DNA of 64,000 bases from a virus. The stretch is taken from IMG/VR virus record IMGVR_UViG_3300043410_001823, positions 21,338 to 85,337 of that record, one strand, 5' to 3'. This document shows positions 4,197 to 63,950 of this stretch, piece by piece (position 1 is the stretch's first letter; every line of letters starts with the position of its first letter). The notes beneath the pieces were generated by a model. That model searched no databases. It saw only the letters and a list, made by a program, of their open reading frames with translations, and was not told the origin of the DNA. Both the position numbers and the translations under genes were made by a program.

Positions 4197-4202
4197 CGGA
4201 AA

Positions 4203-4253
4203 CCCCTCCTGGTCAAGTATATCTAGTATACCATCAACTAGGAGGGGCGTCAA
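4203..4253 (-). promoter_or_regulatory. Promoter inside an RBS-sequestering hairpin
   Basis: On the minus strand TTGACG (4253-4248), 17 bases, then TATACT with an upstream TGG (4233-4225) forms a good promoter. CCCCTCCT (4247-4240) is perfectly complementary to the Shine-Dalgarno stretch AGGAGGGG (4210-4203) of the DUF885 gene. RNA reading through from upstream would fold the site shut; RNA started here (about 4218) lacks the blocking strand. Confidence 0.65.
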
Positions 4254-4265
4254 TTAAGCTTAGAT

Positions 4266-4562: not shown

Positions 4563-4732
4563 TATTCGTCTCCTCTATTCCTAATTGGATAAGTTAATAT
4601 CCAAGTTATAGTAGTTAAAATAATTCCATAACCAACAACTGCTTTGGCACTACCGTCCAAAACAACCCAAGCAATAAACATGCCTAGGAGGGTCCACTGT
4701 TGATCAAGAATATCTTTTAGTAGTTTTACCAT
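4562..4732 (-). CDS. 56-residue two-helix membrane protein (holin or antiholin candidate)
   Basis: Short gene with ATG at 4732 preceded by AAGGAGG and a TAA stop that shares one base with the next ATG. Two hydrophobic segments (residues about 13-25 and 32-48) flank a short LDGSAK turn, and the protein ends with charged YPIRNRGDE. Overlaps at both ends (7 bases with the PA14 gene, 1 base with the following holin candidate) argue for a translated, coupled gene. It may act with the 98-residue protein as a two-component holin system; this is inference. Confidence 0.7.
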   Translation of the reverse strand: MVKLLKDILDQQWTLLGMFIAWVVLDGSAKAVVGYGIILTTITWILTYPIRNRGDE

Positions 4733-6888
4733 CTTTCATTCCTCCTTGAACCGCCTGAGTTTGTACCCCCACTTGGTCCAGATGAACCACCACCTGTTGG
4801 TGCTGATCCACCAGTTGCAACACCTACAGCATTTAAAGCTGCTCCTGCTGCCACTACTGTTGCCACAACCATCTTGGTTGCTTCTTCTCTTTCTGCTGGA
4901 GACATATCTGCTCCAATGCTTCCAAGAGCTGCCAAAGCTGCTCCAGGATCTGATAATGCTGTTGATAATAATGCTGCTGGGTCTGAAACTAATTCAACCT
5001 GAGCAGCAACTTCAGCTGTTATAACGACTGCGCTTCCATTTTCATCAGTTCTAACATCTACTGGTGTTGCTGGTGGAAGGTCAGAATATGAAATACCAGA
5101 AGCTTTTATATCTGCTGAGGATATTGCTTGGCCTGGTTGTAAGCTTGCTATTAGATTTTCTACTACTACTTCTTTTTGTGCCTCTGTTAACTTGCCATCT
5201 TCAGCTGCCTTTTTTAACGCATCTGCTTCTGCTTTAGCTTTAGCTGCTTCTTCAGCTTTTTTAGTTTCTAATGCTTTGGCTTCTTCCTCAGCTTTTGCCT
5301 TTGCTTCAGCTTCTGCTTTAATTTTTGCTTCTTCAATGGCTAATCTTTCTGCTTCTGCTTTTGCATCTGCTTCTGCCTTGGCTTTAGCTTCTGCTTCTGC
5401 TGCTAAGCGATCAGCCTCAGCTTTAGCTTCAGCATCAGCCTTGGCTTTGGCTTCTTCTTCTGCTTTCTTTGCAGCCTCTTCAGCAGCAATTCTCTCTGCC
5501 TCTAATCTTTGTGCCTCAGCTTCGGCAGCAAGTCTATCTGCCTCAGCCTTTGCTGCAGCTTCCGCTGCTGCTTTTGCCTCTGCTTCAGCTTTAATTCTTG
5601 CTTGTTCTGCTGCATATGCTTCTGCTGCAGCAACTCTTGCAGCTTCCGCTGCTATCGCTGCCTGTCTAGCAATCTCTGCTTGTCTTGCTTCTTCAGCAAT
5701 CCTTGCTCTTTCTGCTTCTTCGGCAGCAAGTGTAGAGGCTACTAATGTTTGTGCTGTTGTAACATTATTATTCATTATTGTAACTGCAATATCTACTGCT
5801 AAAAGTGCAGATACTAGATTATTTTTTGCAGTTGTAAGATTGGTTTGTGCTTCTGTTAAATCTGCTTCTGCTACTTCAAGATCTGTTTCTAATACATCAA
5901 GCGTTGCCTGAGCAACTTGAAAATCTGTTTGTGCTGTTTGTAATGTAGCAATCTGTTCTGGTGTTGCAGATGTAGTAGAAAATTCAGATGCAGGAATTAC
6001 TGACCACGATCCATCTCCGTTATATCTCATCAATGCAACCGATGCTCCACCGCCATTTTCATAAAACCAAAATTCAAAATCTTTACCAACTCCTGCTGTT
6101 GTTTGAACTGCAGCAGTTGATCCACCACCACCCTTGTCATACCAATCATTAATGACTAGTTGTCCATCTAAATATAATTTTGTTCCATCATCTGCTGGTG
6201 CATAAATCCACTGTGTCCCAGTATATTGTGGAGTCCAAATCCCTTCCCACTTAACTTGAAAATCTTCAGGATACGTATTAGCAGGCCCTCCACCGCCCCA
6301 AGGCTCATTAATACCATTTGTATCAGTAGTTACAGATACAACAGTTCCTGCCCCTTGTGGAGGAGCATTGTTATATCCACGATCTTGATAAACCGTCATT
6401 GTCAATCCAGGAGATGTGTTTGCTTCTACAACTGCTGTTGCTGAATCAACTATCGATACTTTTACTTCAACTACAGCTGTTTGTGAATCTACTGCTATTT
6501 GAGATATTTGTACATCTTGTTGAGCCACTTCTACAGATACCGTTGCAGAATCAACCTGAGCCATAGCCACAGTAGCACTATCTACTACTGCTTGAGCCTG
6601 ATCAATAGAAACCTGTGCCTGTGCGATAGTGGCTGTAATTGTTTCTGTAGGCTGTGTAATGGCTTGTGCTTGTGTTTCTATGGTTGCCGTTGTACTTTCA
6701 GCCTGAGTTATTGCAGATTGTGCTGACTCTATAATGGCTGTTGGTGTTATTGTTGCTGTAGATGTATCTGATGTAGAAGGTGACACCTGTACGGTAATTT
6801 CATCAGCAATAGCTGTTTCAGAAGGTGAAAAGATTAGCCATAGTGTGACTAATAATCCAACTAAACTAAACTTAAACAGGGTCTTAAT
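4726..6888 (-). CDS. Secreted PA14-domain protein with long Ala/Glu coiled coil
   Basis: A signal peptide appears only if translation begins at the ATT codon at 6888: it lies in frame, has GGAG six bases upstream and gives a basic start, a hydrophobic core (LVGLLVTLWLIF) and a cleavage site near AIADE. The total is then 720 residues; the first conventional start is GTG at 6786. Order of parts: Thr/Ala/Gln-rich repeats to about residue 160, a PA14-type beta domain (about 162-305, with WEGIWTPQYTG and ADDGTKLYLDG), a heptad-like Ala/Glu/Lys coiled coil (about 380-560), then a Gly/Ser tail ending RRNERW. PA14 domains often bind carbohydrate. It may act at the host surface or in lysis. Confidence 0.8.
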   Translation of the reverse strand: MKTLFKFSLVGLLVTLWLIFSPSETAIADEITVQVSPSTSDTSTATITPTAIIESAQSAITQAESTTATIETQAQAITQPTETITATIAQAQVSIDQAQAVVDSATVAMAQVDSATVSVEVAQQDVQISQIAVDSQTAVVEVKVSIVDSATAVVEANTSPGLTMTVYQDRGYNNAPPQGAGTVVSVTTDTNGINEPWGGGGPANTYPEDFQVKWEGIWTPQYTGTQWIYAPADDGTKLYLDGQLVINDWYDKGGGGSTAAVQTTAGVGKDFEFWFYENGGGASVALMRYNGDGSWSVIPASEFSTTSATPEQIATLQTAQTDFQVAQATLDVLETDLEVAEADLTEAQTNLTTAKNNLVSALLAVDIAVTIMNNNVTTAQTLVASTLAAEEAERARIAEEARQAEIARQAAIAAEAARVAAAEAYAAEQARIKAEAEAKAAAEAAAKAEADRLAAEAEAQRLEAERIAAEEAAKKAEEEAKAKADAEAKAEADRLAAEAEAKAKAEADAKAEAERLAIEEAKIKAEAEAKAKAEEEAKALETKKAEEAAKAKAEADALKKAAEDGKLTEAQKEVVVENLIASLQPGQAISSADIKASGISYSDLPPATPVDVRTDENGSAVVITAEVAAQVELVSDPAALLSTALSDPGAALAALGSIGADMSPAEREEATKMVVATVVAAGAALNAVGVATGGSAPTGGGSSGPSGGTNSGGSRRNERW

Positions 6889-48301: not shown

Positions 48302-49978
48302 TTATTGAGACGCTCGACCTTCACCCTTAGGATTACGTCCAGACACTGTGGCTGGACCATCTGATTGGGTGTTAGTTCTTTGAGCATCTCTAGTTCTGTT
48401 TTTAGAGCCATTAGCCTTTGCATCAGCTGCTGCTCTAGCAGAAAGTTGTAGTGGTTCATCCCCGTGTGGAGCTTGAGGTAGACCCAAAATCTCACGAGCT
48501 TCATTAGGAATCATAATCTGATTCTTAACATAACGTTCCAAGATCTGTGACTGAGCAATCTCATCTGTTAGTGTAAGCTCATTAAACTTAAACTCAAGAA
48601 CATCTGTCTTTTCACGAATGATCTTGTTGACTACCTTTGCTAAATGGTTCTGCTCTGGTCTTGAAACTTGCTCTTTAAATGTTCGATCCTGTGCAAGAGA
48701 TGCAGCAAGTGCTGAGCTATCTGATCCACCAATTTTAGAAATTGGAATCTGATGAGCAATAAATATATCATCACGATTCTGCTTACGATATTCTCTAAAT
48801 GAACCTTCTTGAATTCCATTCTCAATTGGCATCATCTCAAACTCAACCTTGTTGTGATCTCCATCACCAGGTAGAGGAATATAAAGAGTTCTATGTGATT
48901 GTGACTTTAGTCCTGTTTGCAAAAAGCGGAACATCTTGTCTTCAGCATCAGGCGAAAGTTTTGCACCCTTAAGCATGATGATGTAACGTGGAACAGCTTT
49001 ATTTTCAAAATAGTCAATGTTGTATTGTGATGCAAGTTGATCACCAATAAGTGATGGCATTGCAGCAATAATATCTGGAACACCATAATATGTATTTAGT
49101 GGTGAGTATTCCTTAATATGGATAATTTCGTTTGGTCTTGGATCTGCTGTCAATGGATTTGGATTCTTGGCACCAAAGTTACGGAAGTAAACAAGTTTTT
49201 GTCCAATAATTTGTACATATCCATCCTTAAGACGACGCACACGCATTGTTGTAGAAGGTATGTGGCCTACATATCCAATGTCGCCCTTTACTGTTCTACC
49301 AATTTCAATATAACCATTTCCAGTTGCCTGTACATCTGTATAAACTTTTTCCATTGTTTTAATAAAAGAGTCATCATCATTCAATGACTCTATCCACTCA
49401 CGCAACTGAAGTTTTGCTCTTTCAATTCTGTTCCGTGCACGATCAACTTGATCTGAATCTTCGTTATTTTCTAATCTTAGTGCAACAGACTGTGTCGGGG
49501 AAAAATCATATCCAAGACTTACAACATTTTCAACCTTTGCATCAATTGCTGCATGGTTTGCAAACGATGTATCATAAAAATTTGCTAATTCATAAAGATT
49601 GTATGGTGGTGTGATAACATCAAAGATTCCGTAACCATTTCTATAAACAGTTCCAGGATTTAGTTGCTTTGAGTTTGCTCCGACACCAACTGGACTTGCT
49701 TTTGCAGAATCTAAATATGGCCCCATAGTATCTGATTGATACGGACGCATTGCATTCTTTGTATCTACATTGCTAAAACTTGTATAGTCTCCACCAGCTG
49801 CTTTTGTAACGTTTCGTGATGTACGACGTTTAAAATTTGTATCAATTCCGCCTAGATCTTTTAAGTTATCCCAAGATTTAGCAAAAGGATCTTTATCAGC
49901 GAATAAATCTTCACGAGCTGGCTGAGTATTTAAACTAATGTCTACAATTTGACTGTAATCTTCATTATCCATTGTCAT
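48302..49978 (-). CDS. Portal protein
   Basis: 558 residues from the ATG at 49978 (a TTG-initiated frame five codons longer is unlikely). Typical portal features: central FIKTMEKVYTDVQATGNGYIEIGR, IGYVGHIPSTTMRVRR, EIIHIKEYSPLNTYYGVPDI, and the long C-terminal helix region with EQNHLAKVVNKIIREKT, then a disordered polar tail. It forms the dodecameric DNA gate at one capsid vertex. It precedes the protease and capsid genes as in HK97-like phages. Confidence 0.9.
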   Translation of the reverse strand: MTMDNEDYSQIVDISLNTQPAREDLFADKDPFAKSWDNLKDLGGIDTNFKRRTSRNVTKAAGGDYTSFSNVDTKNAMRPYQSDTMGPYLDSAKASPVGVGANSKQLNPGTVYRNGYGIFDVITPPYNLYELANFYDTSFANHAAIDAKVENVVSLGYDFSPTQSVALRLENNEDSDQVDRARNRIERAKLQLREWIESLNDDDSFIKTMEKVYTDVQATGNGYIEIGRTVKGDIGYVGHIPSTTMRVRRLKDGYVQIIGQKLVYFRNFGAKNPNPLTADPRPNEIIHIKEYSPLNTYYGVPDIIAAMPSLIGDQLASQYNIDYFENKAVPRYIIMLKGAKLSPDAEDKMFRFLQTGLKSQSHRTLYIPLPGDGDHNKVEFEMMPIENGIQEGSFREYRKQNRDDIFIAHQIPISKIGGSDSSALAASLAQDRTFKEQVSRPEQNHLAKVVNKIIREKTDVLEFKFNELTLTDEIAQSQILERYVKNQIMIPNEAREILGLPQAPHGDEPLQLSARAAADAKANGSKNRTRDAQRTNTQSDGPATVSGRNPKGEGRASQ

Positions 49979-50375
49979 ATGCTTCTTTTCCAATTACATT
50001 AACTGTATCTTGAGCAGCCTTCCATGCACCTAGATCATTCATAGAAGGAATAAGTCCTTGCTTTAAACGATCCATTTGCTCTGAGTGCTCTTCTTCTGAA
50101 ATTCTTGTAAGTCCAGGAACAAAGACTGCTTGTCCATCGCCAGGATCTCCATTTCCCATTGCAGCAGCTTTTAACTTTGCAATTTGAGAAAGATCACCTT
50201 TCATTGAAGGAATGTTCAATACACTTCCTTCTCCGTCAGTAAACCAACGTCCGTTAGCCTTCTTATAAACGTATAGACCCCAGTCATAGTGTTTATCTAT
50301 AACCTGGCGTCTTACGTTTCCTACAATAGGCTTACCAGTTTTGCGGTTAATTAGTGGGCTTAGATCCATATCCAT
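49965..50375 (-). CDS. Hypothetical protein upstream of portal, leaderless mRNA
   Basis: 136 residues. Beta-rich N-terminal half (GNVRRQVIDKHYDWGLYVYKKANGRWFTDGEGSVLNIP) and a helical C-terminus; no recognised domain. The ATG at 50375 has no Shine-Dalgarno and begins seven bases after a TGGTATACT motif, so a leaderless transcript is expected. Its stop overlaps the portal start, making it the first gene of the head operon. Confidence 0.7.
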   Translation of the reverse strand: MDMDLSPLINRKTGKPIVGNVRRQVIDKHYDWGLYVYKKANGRWFTDGEGSVLNIPSMKGDLSQIAKLKAAAMGNGDPGDGQAVFVPGLTRISEEEHSEQMDRLKQGLIPSMNDLGAWKAAQDTVNVIGKEAYDNG

Positions 50376-52638: not shown

Positions 52639-53514
52639 TTAATCTTTATTTTGTTTCTTTAAATGCTTTCTAAATTCTTCTTTATCAATGTGCCTAAAAA
52701 ACTTTCCAGATAGTTCTTCGCCTTCGACGCCAGCACTTTGATATTCTCTAATCTTTTCTTCTGTAAACTGAGGATTAGGAATTAGTGGAATTTTCCATCT
52801 ATCGATATGCTCTTGATCTTTATTTCCTATTTGCTCATAGTACTCTGGGGTGCCATAATTGTAAAAAGTTCCAGGGTTGTCTATTGCCTTTAAAGAAAAA
52901 TTAGAAAAAGCATATCTAATTCCAGAGGTAACTTCTCTAACACCATGAGCATATGGATCAAAAGCACTATGGATAACCAAATCTCCTCTTTCTGGCTTAA
53001 ACTCTAAACACTGTCCAATAACATTGTTATCTTCAGTTTTTAAAGTGCCGTCTGGATTAATGTTTGGATAGAAGATTTCTCCACCTTCGTAATCTCCAAA
53101 ATATGCGACTACCCCATAGTCTAATTCGCAGCAGGTGCTCCATACATCTACTTGAGACAATAGATTACACATTCCTTTACCTGGACTATCGGAGTGAATA
53201 AACATTCCGTTGTCACCAGGCTTTACAGATAGCAGATTATTTTGTGGATGAATGACCCAGTCTGGGCCTATAATGTCTCCAATTTGTTCCCAAACATCTA
53301 TTAACCCATCAACTGTTGGAGTTAATTTTTCTGAATACCAAGAGATTAAAGTATCTTTATATACTTCATTTTGTGTGCCCCTCAAGCCAGACTCAATTTT
53401 TTCAACAAGCTCTGGCTTAATAATATTTTTAAAAAGAAATACTCCACTTTGGGTTCCATATGCATCTACATATGGAGATATTGTAATACAGTCTTCTCTT
53501 TCGTAAAACTTCAT
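52639..53514 (-). CDS. 2OG-Fe(II) oxygenase, prolyl-hydroxylase-like (1 of 7)
   Basis: 291 residues, the last gene of the oxygenase island. The iron triad is His107-x-Asp109 (MFIHSDSP) and His190 (YAHGVREV), with Arg200 (SGIRYAF) to hold 2-oxoglutarate. The core strand YFGDYEGGEIFYP and KPERGDLVIH are typical of the P4H-like 2OG family. A C-terminal extension of about 80 residues (with PNPQFTEEKIREYQ) is longer than in its neighbours. It would hydroxylate a protein or sugar substrate using O2 and 2-oxoglutarate; the substrate is unknown. It has its own promoter. Confidence 0.88.
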   Translation of the reverse strand: MKFYEREDCITISPYVDAYGTQSGVFLFKNIIKPELVEKIESGLRGTQNEVYKDTLISWYSEKLTPTVDGLIDVWEQIGDIIGPDWVIHPQNNLLSVKPGDNGMFIHSDSPGKGMCNLLSQVDVWSTCCELDYGVVAYFGDYEGGEIFYPNINPDGTLKTEDNNVIGQCLEFKPERGDLVIHSAFDPYAHGVREVTSGIRYAFSNFSLKAIDNPGTFYNYGTPEYYEQIGNKDQEHIDRWKIPLIPNPQFTEEKIREYQSAGVEGEELSGKFFRHIDKEEFRKHLKKQNKD

Positions 53515-53534
53515 AGTTCCTCCCTCATAAAAAT

Positions 53535-53543
53535 ATTATACCA
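53535..53543 (-). promoter_or_regulatory. Extended -10 promoter before oxygenase 1
   Basis: TGGTATAAT on the minus strand overlaps the end of the upstream oxygenase gene; GAGGGA lies in the leader before the ATG at 53514. Confidence 0.6.
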
Positions 53544-54207
53544 CCAATACTGAACAAGGCACTGTATATCTTATTCCAGATATGATTGGTTTTACCTCAT
53601 GAATAAACTCTGAAGTGGCTGGAAACATAACTAAGCTACCTGCTTTAGGCTTAATCATAACGTTGTGGTTTGGAAAATTAATTTCTCCGCCTTCATAGTC
53701 GTCATTTAAATACAAGACCATAGTGAAGGCCAATCCATAACTTCCATCCTGTCCATCTGCGTGTGGACCCATATTTTGACCAACATTCCATTTTTTTATA
53801 TTGATAATGTTTTGATCTAAAGCATATTTGTTTGGGTCTAATCCATGCCCTTTTGTATATCGATCAAAGCACATCTCTAAAGCCATACTTAGGCTATTGC
53901 GTATATACCTGGTTTTTTGCTCTACTCTTTTATTGTCAATTTGAATATTGTTAGATTCTGGAACAATGGTCTTATAGTATCCATATAAAACATTTTTGTC
54001 GTTACTTGCAGTCCATTCCTGCCACTTATTAATTCTTGGATAAGATTCTTCGACTAAATCTATTTCTTCAATAAAATCAACAAGTTCATTAGGACAGCTT
54101 ACAACATTATCCCAATACCAAATATTAGCACTTGGTGCAACTAGATCAAACATTGTATATTGCTTTTTACCTTCCATGTGAGAAAGGTTATTAGACATCA
54201 TACTCAT
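53536..54207 (-). CDS. 2OG-Fe(II) oxygenase, prolyl-hydroxylase-like (2 of 7)
   Basis: 223 residues, closest to the plain P4H-like fold. His149-x-Asp151 (MGPHADGQDG), His203 (FIHEVKPI) and Arg213 (GIRYTVP) complete the metal and cosubstrate sites; LYLNDDYEGGEINFP and IKPKAGSLVMFP are the core strands. The start shares a base with the upstream stop (TAATG), so it is translated with oxygenase 3. The short C-terminus ends right after the last core strand. Confidence 0.9.
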   Translation of the reverse strand: MSMMSNNLSHMEGKKQYTMFDLVAPSANIWYWDNVVSCPNELVDFIEEIDLVEESYPRINKWQEWTASNDKNVLYGYYKTIVPESNNIQIDNKRVEQKTRYIRNSLSMALEMCFDRYTKGHGLDPNKYALDQNIINIKKWNVGQNMGPHADGQDGSYGLAFTMVLYLNDDYEGGEINFPNHNVMIKPKAGSLVMFPATSEFIHEVKPIISGIRYTVPCSVLVV

Positions 54208-54959
54208 TACTCAACCTCTTCGGCAAGATACTTATTTCCTTCTGGACTAATTCTATATCCACTTTCTCTGATATCTGCCCAGTCTTTTTGTTGATCTTTT
54301 TGCATAGCTCTAACCTCTGCCAATTCCTTGGCCCACTTTTCTCTAATATCTGCTGGATAATCAGACTCTTCTCTGTCATCCCAGAATGAACCTAGTGTGT
54401 ACCTAGCGCCATGTTTAATTACTGACACCTCATGCATATTTTTATGTCCGCCATGAAAAATAGCAAACATTCCAGCTTTAGGCTGTATAGATATATCTTG
54501 TTCTCCATAATTTGCTTTAAACTTTAATAATCCACCTTCAAAATCACTGTTCAAATACATAAAGCCAGCATATCTACTTCTAGTAAAGGCACCCATAACT
54601 CCATTGTTATCTGAATTGTCTGAGTGTAGCGGAGCAAATGCTCCTGGTAGCCACCTCTGTACGTGAAAACTAATTCTAGACATTTTCTCTGGAGAAACCC
54701 CAGCGACATTTGCTGCTGCTTCCCTATATCTAGTCATCATTGTAGACATCCAATTACTAGGTAAGCCAAATTGCTCTAAAATAGGGTCATTATCTTCTGG
54801 GTATCCAGCAGAGTATGATTCGTAGAAAGATATTGGCTTCCAGTAATCTGGATCTCTTTCAGCATAAGCTAAAATCATGTTTAAAGTTTTTTCTGATTCT
54901 TCTGGTGTCAAAAAATCATCATAAATATGAATATCCTCAGATATTTTATTTAGCTTCAT
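54207..54959 (-). CDS. 2OG-Fe(II) oxygenase, prolyl-hydroxylase-like (3 of 7)
   Basis: 250 residues from the ATG at 54959, which lies inside the end of the upstream gene (GGAAAGAG upstream). His112-x-Asp114 (APLHSDNSD), His176 (MHEVSVI) and Arg186 (GARYTLG) are present, with YLNSDFEGGLLKF and IQPKAGMFAIF. A charged C-terminal helix (REKWAKELAEVRAMQKDQQ) is not seen in oxygenase 2 and could bind a partner or substrate. Confidence 0.88.
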   Translation of the reverse strand: MKLNKISEDIHIYDDFLTPEESEKTLNMILAYAERDPDYWKPISFYESYSAGYPEDNDPILEQFGLPSNWMSTMMTRYREAAANVAGVSPEKMSRISFHVQRWLPGAFAPLHSDNSDNNGVMGAFTRSRYAGFMYLNSDFEGGLLKFKANYGEQDISIQPKAGMFAIFHGGHKNMHEVSVIKHGARYTLGSFWDDREESDYPADIREKWAKELAEVRAMQKDQQKDWADIRESGYRISPEGNKYLAEEVE

Positions 54960-55800
54960 TTGATTCTCTTTCCATCTTTTCAGCATGCATCTGCTCGTAA
55001 GGAATAATCTTTTGATCTTTTAGATATACCATATTGCGCTTATCTTCATAGTCAATTCTTTCTTCTTCCATCTTTGCCCATCGATATGCACCATGCTTCT
55101 TTTGGTTAGCTAGCCATTCAGCGCTTCCATCGTAATCAAACATAACAAAGTTTCTAATAAAGAATTTATTTCCATCTGGAATGGTTTTAACGCCATGGAA
55201 GAATGGTGCTCCTGAAGGAAATACAACAAGGTCTCCTGCCTTTGGCTTATGATTTACAATGTCTCCATTAATATAAAATTCAATATCTCCACCATTATAA
55301 TTATCATTAATATAAAAAGTACATGTGGTATGGAATTTTTCTCCAGGCATGTCTCTTTGAGAAATAATATAGTCAGTATGATATTGCATTGTCATATTAT
55401 TTTTTAAATTATCAATTTTATTGAAATACTTACACCAAGACTGGCCACTATATCTAGCACCCTCTGGAATCTCAATTCCTGTGTGCTTAAAGTAATGAGA
55501 TATTGCCTTATCATAAGATATAGCAATTTCCTCATACAGAGATTTCTCTTCTTCGAAAATTGGACCAAGTTCAGCTTGAGCTAACTCAGTTCCAAACTTT
55601 GCTTGCGTATATGTTCCAAAATGTGCCCAAGGATCCCAGGTCTTAAAGAAGTATTTTCCAGCACTAGATTCTTCAGAACGCATCATAATTTCATATGCCT
55701 TATCTGGATTGCTTAACATGTTTCGATAAACGATAACTCCTGGATAAAGTTCTTCCCAGTCTAGTGCATCTATATCATCTCTAAGGTTTAAACTATGCAT
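54946..55800 (-). CDS. 2OG-Fe(II) oxygenase with Lys at the usual Arg position (4 of 7)
   Basis: 284 residues. His141-x-Asp143 (MQYHTDYI) and His202 (FFHGVKTI) form the iron site, with YINDNYNGGDIEFY and HKPKAGDLVVFP as core strands. Where the relatives have GxRY, this protein reads DGNKFFIRNF, so Lys212 (or Arg216) must bind the 2-oxoglutarate carboxylate. Long N- and C-terminal extensions. It overlaps the downstream gene by 14 bases and the upstream gene by one. Confidence 0.85.
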   Translation of the reverse strand: MHSLNLRDDIDALDWEELYPGVIVYRNMLSNPDKAYEIMMRSEESSAGKYFFKTWDPWAHFGTYTQAKFGTELAQAELGPIFEEEKSLYEEIAISYDKAISHYFKHTGIEIPEGARYSGQSWCKYFNKIDNLKNNMTMQYHTDYIISQRDMPGEKFHTTCTFYINDNYNGGDIEFYINGDIVNHKPKAGDLVVFPSGAPFFHGVKTIPDGNKFFIRNFVMFDYDGSAEWLANQKKHGAYRWAKMEEERIDYEDKRNMVYLKDQKIIPYEQMHAEKMERESNEAK

Positions 55801-56549
55801 TATTGATTCTCTTTCTGTTCGAATATCTTCTTATATTCTGGATTATCAAATCCACCAATATAATCTTGTGGAGGTTGCTTTTCTCCTGTATGTCTTTTAA
55901 TTGTCCAAAAAAATGGAGAAGTAAATCTATTTCCTGACTTAATTGGTCTTACCCCGTGGGCATAATGTCTATCACCAGGGAAGAAGTAGGCAGATCTTGG
56001 TTTTGGCTTAAACTCAATGCCATGTTGAGGGAAATAAAGCTCTCCTCCCTCGTAATCATCATTAAAATAAAATAAGGACGCTATGTCATACCAAGGAAAA
56101 TCATTTGGTCTTCCAGTCTCTTCTCCTACCCAAAACTCTTTATCTGCATGCGGTTCTTGCCTTGCACCAACTGGCCATTTTACAATTGCTGGTCCAGTTT
56201 CTTTTGCATCGACATTAAAAAATTTATCTACTTCTATTTTTAATCTATTAATCATGCTGTATATAAGTTCTAGAATTGATGGGTCTGAAGCCATCAATGA
56301 GTTGTATGTACAAACTCTATCTGCCCAAATATTATGATCATACAAAACTAGTCCATCTTCATCTATATGTGTTTCTGTTACATCCCAAATTTTATTATTA
56401 AGTGCAAAACTCATAAGTCTTTGCTGCTCTTCTTCTGTTAAGAAGTTTTCAAGCTCTACAATATTGTCTTCAGAATTACCAAAGAACCCTGATGGAGTTA
56501 TGGACTTTGGTGCGTTATTCTTATTCCATGCATTACTTGTTTCGTTCAT
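55800..56549 (-). CDS. 2OG-Fe(II) oxygenase, prolyl-hydroxylase-like (5 of 7)
   Basis: 249 residues. His134-x-Asp136 (QEPHADKEFW), His198 (YAHGVRPI) and Arg208 (SGNRFTSP); core strands YFNDDYEGGELYFP and FKPKPRSAYFFP. The N-terminal region (VELENFLTEEEQQRL) is the usual helical entry of P4H-like oxygenases. The start overlaps the end of oxygenase 6 by four bases. An acidic/aromatic insertion after the HxD motif (WVGEETGRPNDFPWYD) may shape substrate choice. Confidence 0.9.
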   Translation of the reverse strand: MNETSNAWNKNNAPKSITPSGFFGNSEDNIVELENFLTEEEQQRLMSFALNNKIWDVTETHIDEDGLVLYDHNIWADRVCTYNSLMASDPSILELIYSMINRLKIEVDKFFNVDAKETGPAIVKWPVGARQEPHADKEFWVGEETGRPNDFPWYDIASLFYFNDDYEGGELYFPQHGIEFKPKPRSAYFFPGDRHYAHGVRPIKSGNRFTSPFFWTIKRHTGEKQPPQDYIGGFDNPEYKKIFEQKENQ

Positions 56550-57163
56550 TCTGACTCCTTAACAACATATGGTGTAATTTCATAAGAACTAAAAGGCTTT
56601 TCATATACATAGACAGACGTTAGGTATCTACTTCCACTGCTTACTAATTTAACTCCATGATTAAAATTGCTAGGGAAAATAACAACTGATCCTGCCTTTG
56701 GCTTAATTGAAACTGAGTGATCTGGAAAATATATTTCTCCGCCCTGATAGTTATCATTAAAATAAAGCAATAAAGTTATGTATGGTTTTACATTAACCCC
56801 ATTTTCACTAACAAAGCCATAACCATCGTTATGAGATGACATTTCTGATCCCTCACAGTATTCTCTAATAGGTATTCCACCCAGATCAATATGATCTACA
56901 GAGATTGAAAGCGATAATTCAGATATATAGTCTTGTAAAGAATCTCTAAACACATCTAAAATTTCTTCATGTTCTTTGTCTTCTGATGAAACGTAGGCGC
57001 TATTGCCAACAATGGTGCTGCCACCATTTAGATTTGTATATGGTTGCCAAAAATATGATTTAAGTGATTGTAGCAAATTATCAGCTTGTAGACATGCGCC
57101 ATCTATTTCCCAAATTTTTTCTGCATGTCTGACAATGGTTCTAGAATTTCCCATATCGCTCAT
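56546..57163 (-). CDS. 2OG-Fe(II) oxygenase, prolyl-hydroxylase-like (6 of 7)
   Basis: 205 residues from the ATG at 57163, which has GGAGG in place; the longer frame to 57175 starts at a TTG inside that box. His111-x-Asp113 (SSHNDGYG), His169 (FNHGVKLV) and Arg179 (SGSRYLTS); LYFNDNYQGGEIYFP and IKPKAGSVVIFP. A TATAAT lies at 57180-57175, only 12 bases before the ATG, so an extra promoter is possible though the extended -10 TG is absent. Confidence 0.9.
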   Translation of the reverse strand: MSDMGNSRTIVRHAEKIWEIDGACLQADNLLQSLKSYFWQPYTNLNGGSTIVGNSAYVSSEDKEHEEILDVFRDSLQDYISELSLSISVDHIDLGGIPIREYCEGSEMSSHNDGYGFVSENGVNVKPYITLLLYFNDNYQGGEIYFPDHSVSIKPKAGSVVIFPSNFNHGVKLVSSGSRYLTSVYVYEKPFSSYEITPYVVKESE

Positions 57164-57192
57164 TTTTGCCTCCAATTATATGATATCATATT

Positions 57193-57894
57193 TTATAAAT
57201 CGTTTATTACATTTAAGTTAATTTTTTTGACCTGGTGGTCTCCAAGTTTATTATTTTTATGATCTACGGCATTTCTGTAAAAGTCTGCCCATTTGCCTAG
57301 CTTATTTATTTCAAAAATAGTATTAGAATAGTCATTCATGTCTACTTTGCTTCTTTTCATATTTGATGCTGAATCAAAATTAATAGACGAGTCTTGAATT
57401 ATTTCTAAATCAATTGGCAAAATAGCAGCTATTGGCGTATTTGCTTTAATAATAATTTCAGTTTTTGGCTTTAATATTCTACAAGCAATTGGAAGCTCTC
57501 CGTCATACCAGGATGTGCTCATTAAGGTTGTAAATGTTTGAAAATTATCATTAAAGTGGTTTGGAACTGGCATAGTTAAAAGTGTTACATTTTTAGGTGT
57601 CTCAAACTTTATACCTGTGTGAAAGCTTATTGTTGCATTTGCTCTTCCAGTGTATGCATATTTTTCACCAGATATTATCTTTACATGATCTGAGGTAGAA
57701 TCAGATATTCCATCCCAAGTAAAGACTATGTCTTCTGGAAATGATACTTCCCAGCCTAATTTGTTTGCCAGACTTACTGGAAAACAGTGATAAGCATGAG
57801 CGTTATAGGTTTCATCCATCCAATCTCTATTAATTGATAATGGAGCAATATTTGCAAAACCTGCTTGTACCCTATAAGCTTTTATTTCATACAT
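57193..57894 (-). CDS. DUF6065-family protein
   Basis: 233 residues. INRDWMDETYNAHAYHCFP, then NKLGWEVSFPEDIVFTWDG, ISFHTGIKFETP and a late IKANTPIAAILPID match the family I know as DUF6065, whose function is undescribed. It carries none of the 2OG iron motifs. It sits in the middle of the oxygenase island with a four-base gap to oxygenase 7 upstream, so it probably belongs to the same pathway, perhaps binding or presenting a substrate. No Shine-Dalgarno is evident; translation may be coupled. Confidence 0.7.
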   Translation of the reverse strand: MYEIKAYRVQAGFANIAPLSINRDWMDETYNAHAYHCFPVSLANKLGWEVSFPEDIVFTWDGISDSTSDHVKIISGEKYAYTGRANATISFHTGIKFETPKNVTLLTMPVPNHFNDNFQTFTTLMSTSWYDGELPIACRILKPKTEIIIKANTPIAAILPIDLEIIQDSSINFDSASNMKRSKVDMNDYSNTIFEINKLGKWADFYRNAVDHKNNKLGDHQVKKINLNVINDL

Positions 57895-57898
57895 ATCG

Positions 57899-58597
57899 TT
57901 ACATGCTTTGCGATGATTGATTTTGTACCCAGCGTTGTCTCATCTGCATAAACTCATCATTATGAGCATGATCATTATAATCAAGCATGGTAACAACTGA
58001 GTACTTAGTTCCAGTTTCTACTGGCAAAGCTATATGAGAAAATAAAAACGTAGATGGGAAAATGTATAGATCTCCAGCTTGAGGCTTAATTTCTAATCCT
58101 AACTTAGGAAACTTTAAGCCACCACCTGTATAATCATCATTTGGATACCCTACCAAAGAAACGGTAGCACTATAAGAAAATCCATCATCAGCATGTTCTT
58201 GGAAATGCTGTCCTGGTATATATCTTATACAATTCATTACTTCCCAATAATCCATTCTGACAGAATATCTAGTGCAATAGTCTGAAACTGGACCATCCTG
58301 TGCTCTCTTTAGATCTTTCCATAAAGAATCTACAAGTACTTCAGTATTATTTCTAGGATACTTTATATCTGTTACTTTGATATCATGACAATCACGATAA
58401 TCTGGTCTCTTATCTGCATATCCAACAAAACCAAAGGTCCACTTAAAAGATTTTGCATCATCTTTTTCTGCAGAAATACCAATTTCATCTAGTCTATTGA
58501 TAATATCTAAATCTTTAGTAAATACATTTCTATAAACCCAAACACCAGGGAAAAGCTCTTCTGCATTTGTCCAGTTTTTATTTTCTTGATTAATCAT
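57899..58597 (-). CDS. 2OG-Fe(II) oxygenase with Lys at the usual Arg position (7 of 7)
   Basis: 232 residues. His135-x-Asp137 (FQEHADDGF) and His188 (FSHIALPV) make the iron site; GYPNDDYTGGGLKFP and IKPQAGDLYIFP are the core strands. The cosubstrate position reads TGTKYSVV, giving Lys198 instead of Arg, as in some other 2OG subfamilies. The N-terminus (AEELFPGVWVYRNVF) resembles that of oxygenase 4, and the two may be a closer pair. Driven by a TTGACT/TATAAT promoter. Confidence 0.85.
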   Translation of the reverse strand: MINQENKNWTNAEELFPGVWVYRNVFTKDLDIINRLDEIGISAEKDDAKSFKWTFGFVGYADKRPDYRDCHDIKVTDIKYPRNNTEVLVDSLWKDLKRAQDGPVSDYCTRYSVRMDYWEVMNCIRYIPGQHFQEHADDGFSYSATVSLVGYPNDDYTGGGLKFPKLGLEIKPQAGDLYIFPSTFLFSHIALPVETGTKYSVVTMLDYNDHAHNDEFMQMRQRWVQNQSSQSM

Positions 58598-58620
58598 TGA
58601 ATACCCCTATCCACCTTTAT

Positions 58621-58649
58621 ATTATATCATGTCATCCATTGTAAGTCAA
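58621..58649 (-). promoter_or_regulatory. Promoter of oxygenase 7 and the genes after it
   Basis: TTGACT (58649-58644), 17 bases, TATAAT with TGA (58629-58621) on the minus strand, overlapping the end of the beta-hydroxylase-like gene. Confidence 0.75.
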
Positions 58650-59213
58650 CATTTCATCTGGAAGAATATCAACGATCATATGGATTCTGTCTATATCGCT
58701 TCCGTTTAAAACTGAATGTGGCAACTGATTATTAATCTCATACCCTATACCTTCTTTCATATGAATAGTATTATCCATAACTGTAAATGTAACGTGCTCG
58801 TGAGTAATTAACGGTATATGAACTCTTCTTGAGTAATGAAGTAATGCTCCTCCATCAGTATGCTTGTATACTTCTGAGTTGGCTTTTAGCTTAATAATTT
58901 CACATCTAATTACTTTGCCACTATAATATTTTTCTAAAAAATCAAAGATTTTTTGAGCTTGATTCTGAGCTAACTTTGTTTTAAAAGTATTTATATAATC
59001 TGTTTGAATTGGTGTTCCTGGAATCCACTCATAATCTGTTTCAAATAGCCTAAACATAAAGGTATTCATATGGGTTGTACCTTTTTCTTGCCTTGATGTA
59101 TTTAAAAACCATTCATCAGAATAAGTAGATACTTCTTGCTTAATAGCATCAATATTAAAAGATCCCAGATCTTGTATGGTCCATTTAGTATCTTTTTTTA
59201 CTCTTTTGTACAT
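58632..59213 (-). CDS. Aspartyl/asparaginyl beta-hydroxylase-like 2OG oxygenase
   Basis: 193 residues from the ATG at 59213 (AGGGG nine bases upstream). The pattern differs from the P4H-like set and matches the Asp/Asn beta-hydroxylase family: His118-x-Asp120 (YKHTDGGALLHYSRRVHIPL), YEINNQLPHSVLN with His166, and Arg176 (DRIHMIVDI). Such enzymes hydroxylate Asp/Asn side chains or related substrates; phage targets are unknown. It overlaps the sulfotransferase gene by about 29 bases. Confidence 0.87.
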   Translation of the reverse strand: MYKRVKKDTKWTIQDLGSFNIDAIKQEVSTYSDEWFLNTSRQEKGTTHMNTFMFRLFETDYEWIPGTPIQTDYINTFKTKLAQNQAQKIFDFLEKYYSGKVIRCEIIKLKANSEVYKHTDGGALLHYSRRVHIPLITHEHVTFTVMDNTIHMKEGIGYEINNQLPHSVLNGSDIDRIHMIVDILPDEMLTYNG

Positions 59214-59889
59214 ACTCATATACCCCTAAATCTATATGATTCAATTCTAGCACTCTATTTTTTTGCTCTTTTGTAAGCTCAATGCCTATATTAGGAGACA
59301 TGTTAGATTTGTCTGTATACTTAAATGTAGAAAATCCAAAATGTTTAATTAAGGCTTTGTTAAAATCTTCAATAAAAATATTATGATTATCTAATGAATA
59401 GCAATAAAATTTATCAACATTTTCAAGCACTTTATCTATATCCAATGAATAATCCTCTATATACCAGTTATTCATTATTGCATCTTGAAAATATTTATGA
59501 TTATCATTAAATTTTTCAATATTAGTGCTTCCAGTTAAAAATTTTGACTGAACATTAGATTGAACATCAGACTGTGGTCCATAAAGCCAGTCATCTAATC
59601 TTCTTTCTGCTTCTTCACCCATTCTTACTAATCCTGTAGTATATTTAAAATAACTAATAAAACGGTCTACTGGATTTCTAACAATACAAAATACATCTGG
59701 ATTACTCATATACTTAAGTGGCATGATTCCAAAATGACCACCAACAACCTTGCTATTTCTTAGTACATCTGGTTCTATTTTAGTTCTATTGGATATAAAA
59801 TGTGATACCCCACCAGATATTAGATGGGGTAAAACATTTTGCTTAACGTATATTCCTGATGTTCTTGGTATATGTAAATGATAAATCAT
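59185..59889 (-). CDS. PAPS-dependent sulfotransferase-like protein
   Basis: 234 residues. The 5'-phosphosulfate loop is HIPRTSGIYVKQN (residues 6-18), and the 3'-phosphate motif is IVRNPVDRFISYF (about 69-81), the order seen in carbohydrate and tyrosyl sulfotransferases of the Sulfotransfer_2 type. It would transfer sulfate from PAPS to a sugar or protein hydroxyl; a hydroxylated residue made by its neighbours is an attractive but unproven acceptor. Starts directly after the stop of the Hint gene (TAA then ATG). Confidence 0.85.
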   Translation of the reverse strand: MIYHLHIPRTSGIYVKQNVLPHLISGGVSHFISNRTKIEPDVLRNSKVVGGHFGIMPLKYMSNPDVFCIVRNPVDRFISYFKYTTGLVRMGEEAERRLDDWLYGPQSDVQSNVQSKFLTGSTNIEKFNDNHKYFQDAIMNNWYIEDYSLDIDKVLENVDKFYCYSLDNHNIFIEDFNKALIKHFGFSTFKYTDKSNMSPNIGIELTKEQKNRVLELNHIDLGVYEYVQKSKKRY

Positions 59890-61242
59890 TTACGCAAAAC
59901 CCTTTTTATTGTGAACAACAAGGCTGCCAGCAATAAGAAGGTCATTTGGAGAAGCATCAAATTCAAAGACTCTACGCTTTTCATCAATTAGTGTAATGTC
60001 GTTGATAACAACTTCAGAGAATGTTCCGTCTTCTTGTCTTTCAACAAGGACATCTCCAATTTCCAAAGCACCAGTTGTTCCAAAGAAATATACATCATTT
60101 TTCTTAGTAAGAACTGTTTGTTCAAGAGAGAATCTCTTATTGCTATCACCGTTAACGATCATGGTTACATCCTTAACGTGCTCAATAATGTTTGTAATTG
60201 AAGCTTCTGCATCTGCAATTCCTTCAATTGAAGAGTTTTGCCATGTATATGGATCAAAGGCAAATTCATCTTCAAGTCCTGGAACTTTTACAGATAAAAC
60301 CTTGTCTCCAATTACCATATCTTTTGCTTTCTTCCAGGCAATTGTGTTATTGTCAAGAAGAATTGCAATTGGAGTATCCTCATCAATACAGAATAGAGGT
60401 GGTGCGAAGAACCCTGGAGGTGCAAAGAACACTGGAGGTGCAAAGAACACTGGAGGTGCAAAGAATCCTGGTGGTGCGAAGAATACAGGTGGTGCGAAGA
60501 ATACAGGTGGTGCAAAGAATCCTGGAGGTGCAAAGAACCCTGGAGGTGCGAAGAACCCTGGAGGTGCAAAGAACCCTGGTGGGAAGAATGGTGGGAAGAA
60601 TGGTGGCAATGTAGTTACAGTATTTGTATTTGCTGAAACTAGAGATCTTCCATTAGCATTATCCGCATATACATTGTAATATTGCGATGTGTTTGCAGTA
60701 TCGTTAATTGTAATGCTTGTAGATGTTGTATTTCCAGACGTGCCATCTGATCCAACTACATAATAGTTTGAAATAGCTTTTCCACCATTTGCTGGTGCTG
60801 TCCAAGATATTACATCTGAATTAACAGCTGCAGTAGCAGATGGTGATTGTGGAGCCTGTGGAACTGTTGTAGCAGTTACAGAACCAGAAACTGTTGCTAC
60901 TCCGCTACCAAATGTATTTTTAGGAGTTATCGTAAATGTATATGAAACACCAGATGCTAATCCCTGAAAGGTATAGGATGTAGCTGGTGCTGCAACATTT
61001 GCTGTATATGTAGATGGTGTTGTTGTAATATCGTAAGATGTAGCAGCAGTTGATGTTGAAGGAACCGCCCATGATATTGTAACAGATCCACCAGTACCTG
61101 CAGCCGAAGCTGCAGATGTGGTGTTTGCTGTTGCTAAATAAGGTCTTGCAGTTCCAACATCTGTAACTGTTACTCCAGTTACTGCCAATGGCGGAATTGT
61201 TGAGTCCTGACCATCACTAAATCTACCCTGTAATTTTGCCAT
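59890..61242 (-). CDS. FN3 protein with FFAPP repeats and C-terminal Hint (intein-like) domain
   Basis: 450 residues. Two fibronectin III-like domains (about 20-112 and 113-200) are followed by a proline/phenylalanine repeat region (about 213-283) and a Hint domain from Cys285 (FCIDEDTPIAI, block A) to His444-Asn445 (SLVVHNKKGFA, block G). The residue after Asn445 is Lys, not Cys/Ser/Thr, and the block B TxxH is replaced by TVLT, so true splicing is unlikely; cleavage or cross-linking as in bacterial intein-like domains is possible. Probably a fibre-associated structural protein. Upstream of the modifying enzymes in the same direction, hence a possible substrate. Confidence 0.82.
   Translation of the reverse strand: MAKLQGRFSDGQDSTIPPLAVTGVTVTDVGTARPYLATANTTSAASAAGTGGSVTISWAVPSTSTAATSYDITTTPSTYTANVAAPATSYTFQGLASGVSYTFTITPKNTFGSGVATVSGSVTATTVPQAPQSPSATAAVNSDVISWTAPANGGKAISNYYVVGSDGTSGNTTSTSITINDTANTSQYYNVYADNANGRSLVSANTNTVTTLPPFFPPFFPPGFFAPPGFFAPPGFFAPPGFFAPPVFFAPPVFFAPPGFFAPPVFFAPPVFFAPPGFFAPPLFCIDEDTPIAILLDNNTIAWKKAKDMVIGDKVLSVKVPGLEDEFAFDPYTWQNSSIEGIADAEASITNIIEHVKDVTMIVNGDSNKRFSLEQTVLTKKNDVYFFGTTGALEIGDVLVERQEDGTFSEVVINDITLIDEKRRVFEFDASPNDLLIAGSLVVHNKKGFA
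60394..60606 (-). repeat. Coding 18-bp tandem repeat (FFAPPx)
   Basis: Ten 18-base units encode FFAPP followed by Gly, Val or Leu, preceded by two shorter FFPP units. Codon differences between units are slight (third positions and the Gly/Val codon), indicating recent expansion. Followed directly by the Hint cysteine. Confidence 0.9.
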
Positions 61243-61265: not shown

Positions 61266-63950
61266 TTAGTTAGTTAGGTCTCCGAAGATAGCCCATGTAT
61301 TTGCTGCCACCTTTAGTGCGGTAGCTACAGAGAACTGTCCTCTGAACTTTAATGCCATTGTTCCATTAACTGAAGCTGCCTGGAAGGTTACTCCAGATCC
61401 AGCTACGAAACTTGTTTGTCCTGCACCGATTTGCTGGAAATCTAATGAAGCTCCGACTGGATAGCTATATGTTGAATCTGGTGCAATTGTAATTGTGTTT
61501 GCAGAACCAACATTCATTCTTACAAAAGAATCCTTAACATATGAAGATCCAAGTGTAATGGATGCAGTTGGTGTGTTGATTGGAGTTAAGGATGGTGTTC
61601 CAGCTAGTGTCTGTGTTCCATCTGAGAAAACAATTCCAGATGATGGAGTTACAGTTGTAGCTTCAAGAGAACCTAAAACAAGTGTATCCTTTGTCCATGT
61701 AGTAAAATCGATTGTATCTGAAGGCTCTGTAGTTACTCCAGAGAACAACTTCCACTTTCCATCAGAAGCATCACGGGTTAAACCTGTGTGCTGATATGTT
61801 CCATCACTAAAGTGACCAACAATACCAAGATCCTTAGAATTTGCTGAATTACCAGTTCCGATATAGATAAGTGGGTCAGTGACTTCAAGATTTTGTGAAG
61901 AAACTGTAGTTGTTGTTCCATTAACAGTCAAATTGCCTGAAAGTGTAAGACTTGTACCTGAAACAGCACCTGTAAATGTTGCTCCTGAAAGCGAAGCCTT
62001 TGCATCAAGTGCTGTTTGTGTAGCAGTTGAGACTGGCTTATCGGCATCTGCTGTATTGTCAACGTTGCCAAGACCAACCATGCTCTTTGTAATACCAGAA
62101 ACTGTCCCAGTAAAGGTTGGTGAAGCAATTGGTGCCTTTGCATCAATATTTGTTTGTAGTGCACTACCAGCATTATCTACGTATGTCTTAGTAGCAAGTG
62201 CTGCAGTGTCTGCAATTCCGTGAACATTTGTGCTTGAAGATGTGTGAGATGATAGGTCTGCATCGAGAGCCTTATCATCAAGTTGTGTTTGAATTGCAGA
62301 GGTTACACCATTTACATATGAAAGTTCTGTTCCTGAAACATCACCGATTGATGTTGTTGAAGGCAAAACTACGCTTCCAGTAAAGGTTGGGGCATCTGTA
62401 GACGCTTTTGTTCCAAGAGCATTCCAAATATCTGTATTTTGTTCTTGAAGTATATCTGTTGTTACTAATGCTGATGTATCTGCAATACCGTGAACATTGA
62501 GAGACTGTGCGGTATGGGCATTAAAATCTGAAACATCCGCCTTTGATGCAAGATCTGAAAGATTAACCTTTAATGCTAGTGCTGACTCTACATCTGTTGC
62601 TACTGCCTTGAGGTCTAACTGATCCTGAATATTGCCAGTAATTCCTGCAAGTGTTCCTAGTTCAAATGGATTAATTACATGATTTCCATCTGTAACTGTA
62701 ATAGTAGGATTTTCAAGAGTTGCATCTACTGATGGAGCCTTTGTATCAAATTGTTCTTGAATAGTGTAAGCCTTATTAATTCCATTTAGTGTTTGAAGTT
62801 CGCCGTTATCTACATTTCCGATAATAGCTGAGGTTGCTTCAATTTGTCCAACTTCCAAATTTCCCTTTGTGTATGTTGTAAAATCAATTGATCCTGATGG
62901 TTCTGGAACTACGCCCTCAAAAATTTTCCAAGTTCCGCTTGATGAGTCTTTAACAAATCCTGCGTGAGCATAACCACTTCCATCCTTATATCCACCAACA
63001 AATCCAAGATCTGGATTAAGAGCAGCCTTTGATTCAGCTGATCCTCCAGATGTGTATGTTGCGGTTGATGTATTTGCAAGTGTAAAGCTTGTTTCTGTAA
63101 CAGATAAAATTTCTGACCAATCTGTATTTAGTCCAGATGGAGTAATTCCTGTTACGACTGCAATATTGCCAGCAACAAATAGTGAATCCGCATTATCGAT
63201 AGTATATGTTACGGATGTGCCATTTCCAACTGCTGCAGTAATTGGTTTTGTAACTGCTTCATTAAGATAAATGATATTATCTGTGATTGATAAATTGGTT
63301 GAATTTACAATCGACTGTGTACCTGCAACTGTAAGATTTCCTTCAATGATTACGTTATTTGCTGTAAGATTATTGTTAACTCCAATAGAGTCTGCCTGAA
63401 GATCTGCTGCTGTTACAAGATTTATAAACGTTGGTGAATCTTTTGGAGCATATACATCTGCAACATCGCTGACCTTTGCAAAAACGCTTCCATCAACATC
63501 AAATTGAGATGTACCTAAATTCCAAGATAGTCCATATCCAGCTAGTTCTGATTCATTAACTGCTGCACCTGCTACAGCACCATCAACATATGAAATAGTT
63601 GCAAGTTGAGCTGTATCTTCAATTCCATGTACGTTAGTTGTTGATGATGTATGATCAGATAGATTAGTTGCAACTGTATTTATGAAATCTGGATCATCTC
63701 CAAGTGCTGCTGCTAATTCATTTAATGTATTTAGAAGATCTGGAGCTCCATCTACAAGGCTGTCAATTGCAGATGCTGCATCAGTAAAATATGTTAGATC
63801 TACCCAGTGATTAACACCATCACCGATCTTAAACTTATTTGTATCGGATTCAAATCCAATTTCACCAGCAGCTAGGATAGGCCCGCTACCATTATTTACA
63901 GAAATCCACTGCGCTGCAGTTCCTCTGCGCTGTTGCATTCTTGTTGCCAT
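61266..63950 (-). CDS. Tail fibre with Mtd-like N-terminal domain
   Basis: 894 residues. The N-terminus (MATRMQQRRGTAAQWISVN ... ILAAGEIGFESDTNKFKIGDG) is the virion-attachment motif shared with the Bordetella phage Mtd N-terminal domain. The body has repeated fibre segments (SPTFTGTVSGITKSMVGLGNVDNT; TSLTLSGNLTVNGTTTTVSSQNLEVTD, which occurs in a second version as ANNVIIEGNLTVAGTQSIVNSTNLSITD) and ends in a beta-rich domain. It probably binds the host receptor. AAGGAG precedes the ATG. No template/variable repeat pair typical of diversity-generating elements is visible. Confidence 0.85.
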   Translation of the reverse strand: MATRMQQRRGTAAQWISVNNGSGPILAAGEIGFESDTNKFKIGDGVNHWVDLTYFTDAASAIDSLVDGAPDLLNTLNELAAALGDDPDFINTVATNLSDHTSSTTNVHGIEDTAQLATISYVDGAVAGAAVNESELAGYGLSWNLGTSQFDVDGSVFAKVSDVADVYAPKDSPTFINLVTAADLQADSIGVNNNLTANNVIIEGNLTVAGTQSIVNSTNLSITDNIIYLNEAVTKPITAAVGNGTSVTYTIDNADSLFVAGNIAVVTGITPSGLNTDWSEILSVTETSFTLANTSTATYTSGGSAESKAALNPDLGFVGGYKDGSGYAHAGFVKDSSSGTWKIFEGVVPEPSGSIDFTTYTKGNLEVGQIEATSAIIGNVDNGELQTLNGINKAYTIQEQFDTKAPSVDATLENPTITVTDGNHVINPFELGTLAGITGNIQDQLDLKAVATDVESALALKVNLSDLASKADVSDFNAHTAQSLNVHGIADTSALVTTDILQEQNTDIWNALGTKASTDAPTFTGSVVLPSTTSIGDVSGTELSYVNGVTSAIQTQLDDKALDADLSSHTSSSTNVHGIADTAALATKTYVDNAGSALQTNIDAKAPIASPTFTGTVSGITKSMVGLGNVDNTADADKPVSTATQTALDAKASLSGATFTGAVSGTSLTLSGNLTVNGTTTTVSSQNLEVTDPLIYIGTGNSANSKDLGIVGHFSDGTYQHTGLTRDASDGKWKLFSGVTTEPSDTIDFTTWTKDTLVLGSLEATTVTPSSGIVFSDGTQTLAGTPSLTPINTPTASITLGSSYVKDSFVRMNVGSANTITIAPDSTYSYPVGASLDFQQIGAGQTSFVAGSGVTFQAASVNGTMALKFRGQFSVATALKVAANTWAIFGDLTN

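Follow-up and report, generated by a model that had tools for sequence, protein, structure and literature searches.

Introduction

Hydroxylation of viral proteins at proline has already been proposed for the algal virus PBCV-1, and genes resembling prolyl 4-hydroxylases (P4Hs) are common in phages. The PBCV-1 enzyme (vCPH, PDB 5c5t) is, like the enzymes described here, a virus-encoded 2OG P4H, and it is among their top profile and fold relatives; its proposed targets are viral proteins rich in proline. PBCV-1, however, is an algal virus with one such enzyme, whereas the locus described here is a single phage operon with five to eight distinct ones, adjoining a repeat protein that can be named. 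In animal collagen, P4H and prolyl 3-hydroxylase 1 likewise bring several hydroxylases to one repeat protein, and two of our enzyme classes (C and D) are nearest to prolyl 3-hydroxylase 1, but the collagen repeat is Gly-X-Y whereas that found here is hexameric (FF-x-PP-x), and the partner proteins of the collagen system were not recognised. Collagen prolyl 3-hydroxylase acts on the proline preceding 4-Hyp-Gly, and this Pro-4-Hyp-Gly target resembles the PPG of the present repeat. The algal P4H with (Ser-Pro)5 (3gze, 2jig) has the same fold and also a peptide-repeat substrate, although that repeat differs from FF-x-PP-x and a single enzyme is involved. L-proline cis-4-hydroxylase, of family PF05118, has its fold family and triad in common with one accessory protein of the locus (H); the known enzyme acts on free proline, whereas the gene for H lies between those for a sulfotransferase and a core oxygenase (A).

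Among phages, T4-like cyanophages encode 2OG-Fe(II) oxygenases of the same superfamily (phrog_61), up to five per genome (PMC3037559). These are approximately 25–37% identical to the proteins described here. We know of no link between them and a Phe/Pro fibre. Phage 2OG and P4H-like genes have been assigned to DNA repair and to nitrogen or iron metabolism (PMC3037559; PMC13184970), a structure-based survey reported similarity to a human prolyl hydroxylase with the target not named (PMC12774648), the viral use of prolyl 4-hydroxylase "remains cryptic" according to another survey (PMC9301287), and the functional relevance of viral 2OG oxygenases has been called "less clear" (PMC13184970). In the open-access literature searched we found nothing relevant on hydroxylated phage fibres, nor any description of a phage in which a conserved operon of several hydroxylases is coupled to a repeat fibre.

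Results and Discussion

Organization of the island

The DNA analysed here (the window, 64,000 nucleotides) comprises bases 21338–85337 of an 85,337-bp IMG/VR virus record and includes genes for a phage portal, a prohead protease and a B12-dependent ribonucleotide reductase (RNR). Between the RNR and fibre genes lies an almost gapless island on the minus strand, encoding seven P4H-like 2OG oxygenases, a DUF6065 protein, a PF05118 hydroxylase and a PAPS-type sulfotransferase (Table 1). An earlier note, made from the sequence alone, had reported a run of eight 2OG oxygenases with a DUF6065 protein and a sulfotransferase, and this description holds: the open reading frames (ORFs) are located as described, their products match the corresponding Pfam families (among the P4H-like ones, six of seven above the cut-off), and the HxD...H...R/K sites of the oxygenases are intact. 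The span given there, 52639–59889, is one gene too short, the FFxPP fibre encoded at 59890–61242 being part of the same unit. We divide the enzymes of the window into a core set (A to E), accessory classes G and F, and a pair formed by the sulfotransferase (S) and the PF05118 hydroxylase (H). A second small set (2OG, 2OG, DUF6065) is found outside the window (G000 3273–5486), so that the whole record encodes nine P4H-like enzymes and one PF05118 enzyme.

Table 1. Features of the island and its neighbours, in window coordinates.
Feature	Position	Strand	Basis
Fibre protein, 450 aa, with fn3 region, FF-x-PP-x repeat and Hint-like C-terminal cap; proposed substrate	59890..61242	-	ORF; fn3 PF00041 E 3.3e-10
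Repeat region, 68 aa, ~12 FF[x]PP units, 35% Pro, 35% Phe	60397..60600	-	
Intein-like (Hint) C-terminal cap; Cys1 and C-terminal VHN kept	59893..60396	-	Alignment; PDB profile matches
PAPS-type sulfotransferase (S), accessory	59185..59889	-	PF00685/PF03567 (Sulfotransfer_1/2); HS6ST3 E 6.7e-5
PF05118 hydroxylase (H), accessory	58632..59219	-	Pfam; L-proline cis-4-hydroxylase E 4.8e-7
Core 2OG oxygenase class A	57899..58597	-	Pfam, tree, synteny, profile, model
DUF6065 protein, constant island member	57193..57894	-	Pfam E 7.2e-28
Accessory 2OG oxygenase class G	56546..57175	-	Pfam, tree, synteny
Core 2OG oxygenase class B	55800..56549	-	Pfam, tree, synteny; B. anthracis P4H E 2.9e-12
Core 2OG oxygenase class C	54946..55800	-	Pfam, tree, synteny; prolyl 3-hydroxylase 1 E 1.5e-4
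Core 2OG oxygenase class D	54207..54986	-	Pfam, tree, synteny; prolyl 3-hydroxylase 1 E 3.2e-10
Core 2OG oxygenase class E	53536..54207	-	Pfam, tree, synteny; B. anthracis P4H E 5.7e-10
Accessory 2OG oxygenase class F, small clade	52639..53514	-	Pfam below cut-off; profile match 97%
Long fibre with Mtd_N domain, without repeat; usual upstream neighbour	61266..63950	-	PF18454 E 1.6e-11; synteny

Identity of the oxygenases

The family PF13640 is recognised above its cut-off in six of the seven P4H-like proteins, and the Pfam search also recovered PF05118, DUF6065 and Sulfotransfer_1/2. The seventh protein, class F (52639–53514), scores 20.2 bits for PF13640 against a cut-off of 27; it carries HSD...H...R and was placed by profile comparison, in which it matches class E with 97% probability (E 8.8e-11). 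Conservation of the HxD motif, the distal histidine and the basic 2OG-binding residue is 96–100% within each of the core classes A to E. The fold was modelled for class A, and the remaining oxygenases were assigned via their sequence profiles. The class A model (pLDDT 91.9) supports the double-stranded β-helix that the earlier note had expected, with Foldseek E-values down to 1.8e-10, and its nearest folds are the Pseudomonas EF-Tu P4H, the algal P4H with (Ser-Pro)5, PHD2 and the PBCV-1 P4H. The best profile matches of A, B and E are bacterial and viral peptidyl P4Hs, and those of C and D are to prolyl 3-hydroxylase 1, which is the sole PDB match for C. Judged by sequence profile, the closest solved relatives of the core enzymes are peptidyl-prolyl hydroxylases, including a prolyl 3-hydroxylase, and the distribution of best matches offers a lead towards a split between 3- and 4-hydroxylation across the classes.

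The fibre and its repeat

The 68-residue repeat of the fibre encoded at 59890–61242 has the form FFPPFFPPGFFAPPGFFAPP.... Homologues of this fibre sit directly upstream of the island and contain a similar Phe/Pro stretch, which ranges from 14 to approximately 209 residues where it forms a single block, and their C-terminal caps consist of a few residues, Hint domains or Cys-rich tails, with many of the repeat fibres lacking a Hint cap. Among 1323 hexamers from 115 distinct regions, proline occupies position 4 in 1321 and position 5 in all 1323, a constancy that is partly built in because a hexamer was counted as a unit only if it differed from FF.PP at no more than one position. Phenylalanine is nearly as constant as proline; position 3 is mostly Ala, Ser or Gly, and position 6 is free, with Gly the commonest residue at 42%. 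Synonymous codons vary within the repeat, which argues that the motif is kept as protein. Second, separate Phe/Pro ORFs are present in 30 loci. In the PDB, the profile of the Hint cap matches inteins as well as an intein-like domain from a bacterium (best E 4.6e-5), and in an alignment of such caps Cys1 is invariant and the C-terminal HN is present in 10 of 12, while the block-B His is mostly replaced by Gln or another residue. Identification of the fibre as a collagen was considered and rejected, since Gly-X-Y triplets are absent: the period is six residues (FF-x-PP-x) and Gly, common at position 6 alone, is not fixed.

Conservation of the operon

Across IMG/VR, 68 loci, which between them encode 46 distinct D proteins, keep the full order fibre-(S-H)-A-DUF6065-(G)-B-C-D-E, and nine further loci have the order B-D-(C)-E; some of the loci counted share one contig. 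The number of proline-hydroxylase-like enzymes varies from five to eight per island. In a tree of 236 non-redundant oxygenases the core enzymes A to E fall in separate supported clades, mostly with one member per locus and with class A present twice in some phages. Such position-specific orthologous clades point to distinct activities that are jointly kept. As to the origin of the set, recent tandem duplication was rejected, since the enzymes of one genome lie far apart in the tree and orthologues cluster by position. A nucleotide search of phages gave no match, a tblastn search with DUF6065 gave none, the fibre gave one weak tblastn match only (an intein-domain protein of phage NCTB), and class D gave only weak cyanophage matches, so that none of these searches found a cultured phage with the module.

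Co-occurrence of the enzymes and the repeat was examined from three anchors. With class D as the anchor, a Phe/Pro fibre is present in 37 of 37 informative loci, a locus being counted as informative if 1.5 kb or more of sequence precedes the first A or DUF6065 gene. With the repeat as the anchor, and counting ORFs with 3 kb of downstream sequence, a 2OG gene lies within 3 kb downstream of 61 out of 67 repeat ORFs and a DUF6065 gene does so for 56. All six repeat ORFs without a 2OG gene are explained by contig context: for five (L139, L163, L193, L197 and L209) the contig has an island elsewhere, and for the sixth (L150) it ends inside the next Phe/Pro fibre.

With the portal as the anchor, there are 28 loci in which the MTD-to-RNR interval is intact and a 2OG gene is absent; in 24 of them the two flanking genes are only 141–168 bp apart. 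Two of these 28 records (G014 = L024 and G022 = L037) have an island and a Phe/Pro fibre elsewhere. In the remaining 26 island-less relatives a Phe/Pro fibre is never found in this interval (0/26), and in 25 the repeat pattern is absent from the whole record. In the exception, G044 (L074), a tail protein of 1807 residues includes an FFPP stretch, and the 56 kb of the record gave no PF13640 match; G044 may be a fragment, since its relative G022 is 114 kb long. The earlier note had regarded relatives that lack the island while keeping the fibres as evidence against the fibre as target, and the comparison went the other way, with the fibre missing from that place in all 26 and present beside every informative island. 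Five portal-anchored islands without the standard unit (L251–L254 and L256) are nevertheless preceded by repeat fibres of FFPPFFPF or FPFFPPYF type, which suggests that the Phe/Pro character is what is kept. Over 48 records, the pattern together with at least two PF13640 matches was found in 6, the pattern only in 1, PF13640 only in 2 and neither in 39 (Fisher p 1.5e-5, a value that is optimistic and indicative only, as the phages share ancestry and are not independent). The two PF13640-only records are G009, whose sequence breaks off within the island, and G014, in which the fibre repeat is PFPPP. Where a portal was seen it is 44–75% identical to that of the window, placing these loci in one broad phage group. 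In prokaryote genomes the repeat pattern is rare: 28 stretches were found in 257 Gb, and no 2OG gene was recognised in the DNA available around any of them. A general link of the repeat alone to 2OG genes was rejected for this reason. It may be noted that adjacent genes can be co-inherited without acting on each other.

Proposed function

Gene content, active sites, positional orthology, synteny, joint presence and absence, and similarity to peptidyl-prolyl hydroxylases together make it likely, with a probability of roughly three in four, that the prolines in the fibre repeat are hydroxylated by enzymes from the same operon, with the S–H pair as an add-on tied to one type of cap. The earlier note had pointed to the fibre proteins encoded just upstream as the simplest common target; the comparative data favour that proposal and narrow it to one protein and to the FF-x-PP-x motif. 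The locus would be a fibre-maturation operon whose structural gene encodes a short, presumably tail-associated fibre with a shaft made of the Phe/Pro repeat, mostly FF-[A/S/G]-P-P-x. The prolines of this shaft would be hydroxylated by the five core 2OG-Fe(II) enzymes together with the accessory ones, which probably differ in the position that they modify or act one after another: A, B and E would be 4-hydroxylases, and C and D may 3-hydroxylate the adjacent proline. For the virion this would likely mean a stiffer shaft, with a very hydrophobic, Phe-rich rod kept soluble and functional. A more specific version, to which we give somewhat less than even odds, is that 4- and 3-hydroxylation of adjacent prolines are ordered, with an optional sulfation branch, in a dedicated phage pathway that would resemble the 3Hyp-4Hyp-Gly of collagen but be independent of it.

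The same genes could instead form one receptor-binding cassette, in which the enzymes act on the long Mtd_N fibre or on other virion or host surface proteins. The genes are all adjacent and are gained or lost as a block beside MTD and RNR, and the phages are related, as would be expected of such a cassette. However, MTD fibres persist in the island-less relatives, so that MTD does not need the island; the Phe/Pro repeat persists while the fibre caps differ completely; second Phe/Pro ORFs occur separately, as described above; and in G014 kilobases separate the island from the PFPPP fibre. A bare cassette is insufficient to explain a motif that stays constant as caps change, the second ORFs and the specific type of enzyme, and we consider this alternative unlikely. 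It is highly improbable that the oxygenases act on DNA or small molecules, in DNA repair, in control of 2OG level or nitrogen, or in iron uptake. Such roles have been proposed for 2OG genes of cyanophages (PMC3037559) and of lagoon viruses (PMC13184970), and PiuC-type proteins are among the weaker profile matches of the present enzymes, but peptidyl-prolyl hydroxylases head both the profile and the fold matches, metabolic genes would not be expected to form five orthologous classes bound to a fibre gene, and absence of the enzymes is coupled to absence of the fibre. Hydroxylation of the fibre at Phe, or at fn3 or Hint side chains, instead of at proline would fit the near-constancy of Phe in the repeat and the association of the S–H pair with one cap type, but is scarcely credible given the resemblance of the core classes to prolyl hydroxylases, the match of the PF05118 enzyme to L-proline cis-4-hydroxylase and the many repeat fibres without a Hint cap.

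Hydroxylation of the repeat prolines by the operon would give the 2OG oxygenases, which are common auxiliary genes of aquatic phages, a proposed target in the form of one peptide motif served by five enzymes in many phages, and would provide a concrete, testable substrate for phage prolyl hydroxylases. If this is correct, the operon would amount to an unusually elaborate apparatus reserved for modifying a phage fibre protein, and it would supply proline hydroxylases that differ in specificity; if the ordered 4- and 3-hydroxylation is also correct, the fibre would represent a new class of hydroxyproline-rich viral fibre.

Accessory pair and DUF6065

The PF05118 enzyme H scores 43.2 bits against a cut-off of 22.6, residues H120, D122, H168 and R178 are invariant, and its only PDB match is L-proline cis-4-hydroxylase. 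The Pfam score of S lies at the cut-off, but a PRTSG-/PR-T-[SA]-G loop and an R.PV.R..S.F-type motif are conserved among 13 homologues, so both the 5'-PSB and the 3'-PB motifs are present. The two genes co-occur in 14 loci of the synteny set, always directly between the fibre and A, and S is found without a recognised H in two loci of the class D set (L321 and L322). As an accessory gene found in a minority of islands, the sulfotransferase cannot be central. All nine complete fibres that precede S share one Hint type ending in VHN[KRL]K, and for this reason the target of S and H may be the Hint cap; the pair is best explained as an add-on to this kind of Hint-capped fibre.

The DUF6065 protein was modelled with a pLDDT of 95.2 and shows a weak match to a dUTPase-like fold (TM approximately 0.33–0.42 by query, E 4.6e-5); dUTPase catalytic motifs were not recognised by eye in the DUF6065 consensus. 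The protein perhaps serves in substrate binding or assembly.

Domain structure and distribution of the Phe/Pro fibres

In alignments, the Hint/intein-like domain that forms the C-terminal end of the fibre retains Cys1 and has a C-terminal VHN with KKGFA after it, while the block-B His is replaced by Gln in most of these caps. The cap is possibly self-cleaving or purely structural. Other fibres carry Hint caps without the terminal HN, or short or Cys-rich tails instead.

A further, longer Phe/Pro fibre is found several kb upstream in 30 loci (for example L086, L088 and L098), likewise behind a fibre of the Mtd_N type. Phe/Pro stretches also occur inside very large tail proteins, and the record containing the one in locus L287 has no match to PF13640, the family of P4H-like 2OG oxygenases.

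DUF6065 and the phage host

DUF6065 is a near-constant member of the oxygenase island and is modelled (pLDDT 95) as a beta fold with a weak resemblance to dUTPase; it was not named in any paper found in the open-access literature searched. A second, small 2OG/DUF6065 set lies outside the window in the same record, about 70 kb from the island.

The nearest cultured relatives of the portal are Streptomyces phages (approximately 45% identity), and for this reason its sequence suggests actinobacterial hosts.

Coordinates of the features described
Feature	Location
Portal	48302-49993
DUF6065	57193-57894
Hint/intein-like domain, C-terminal end of fibre (alignment)	59893-60396
2OG (-), 2OG (+), DUF6065 (+)	L257 3273-5486 (G000, whole record)
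Tail protein, 1807 aa, internal FFPPFFPPFF stretch	L287 3627-9047
Tail protein, 1561 aa, internal FFPPFFPPFF stretch	L288 6684-11366
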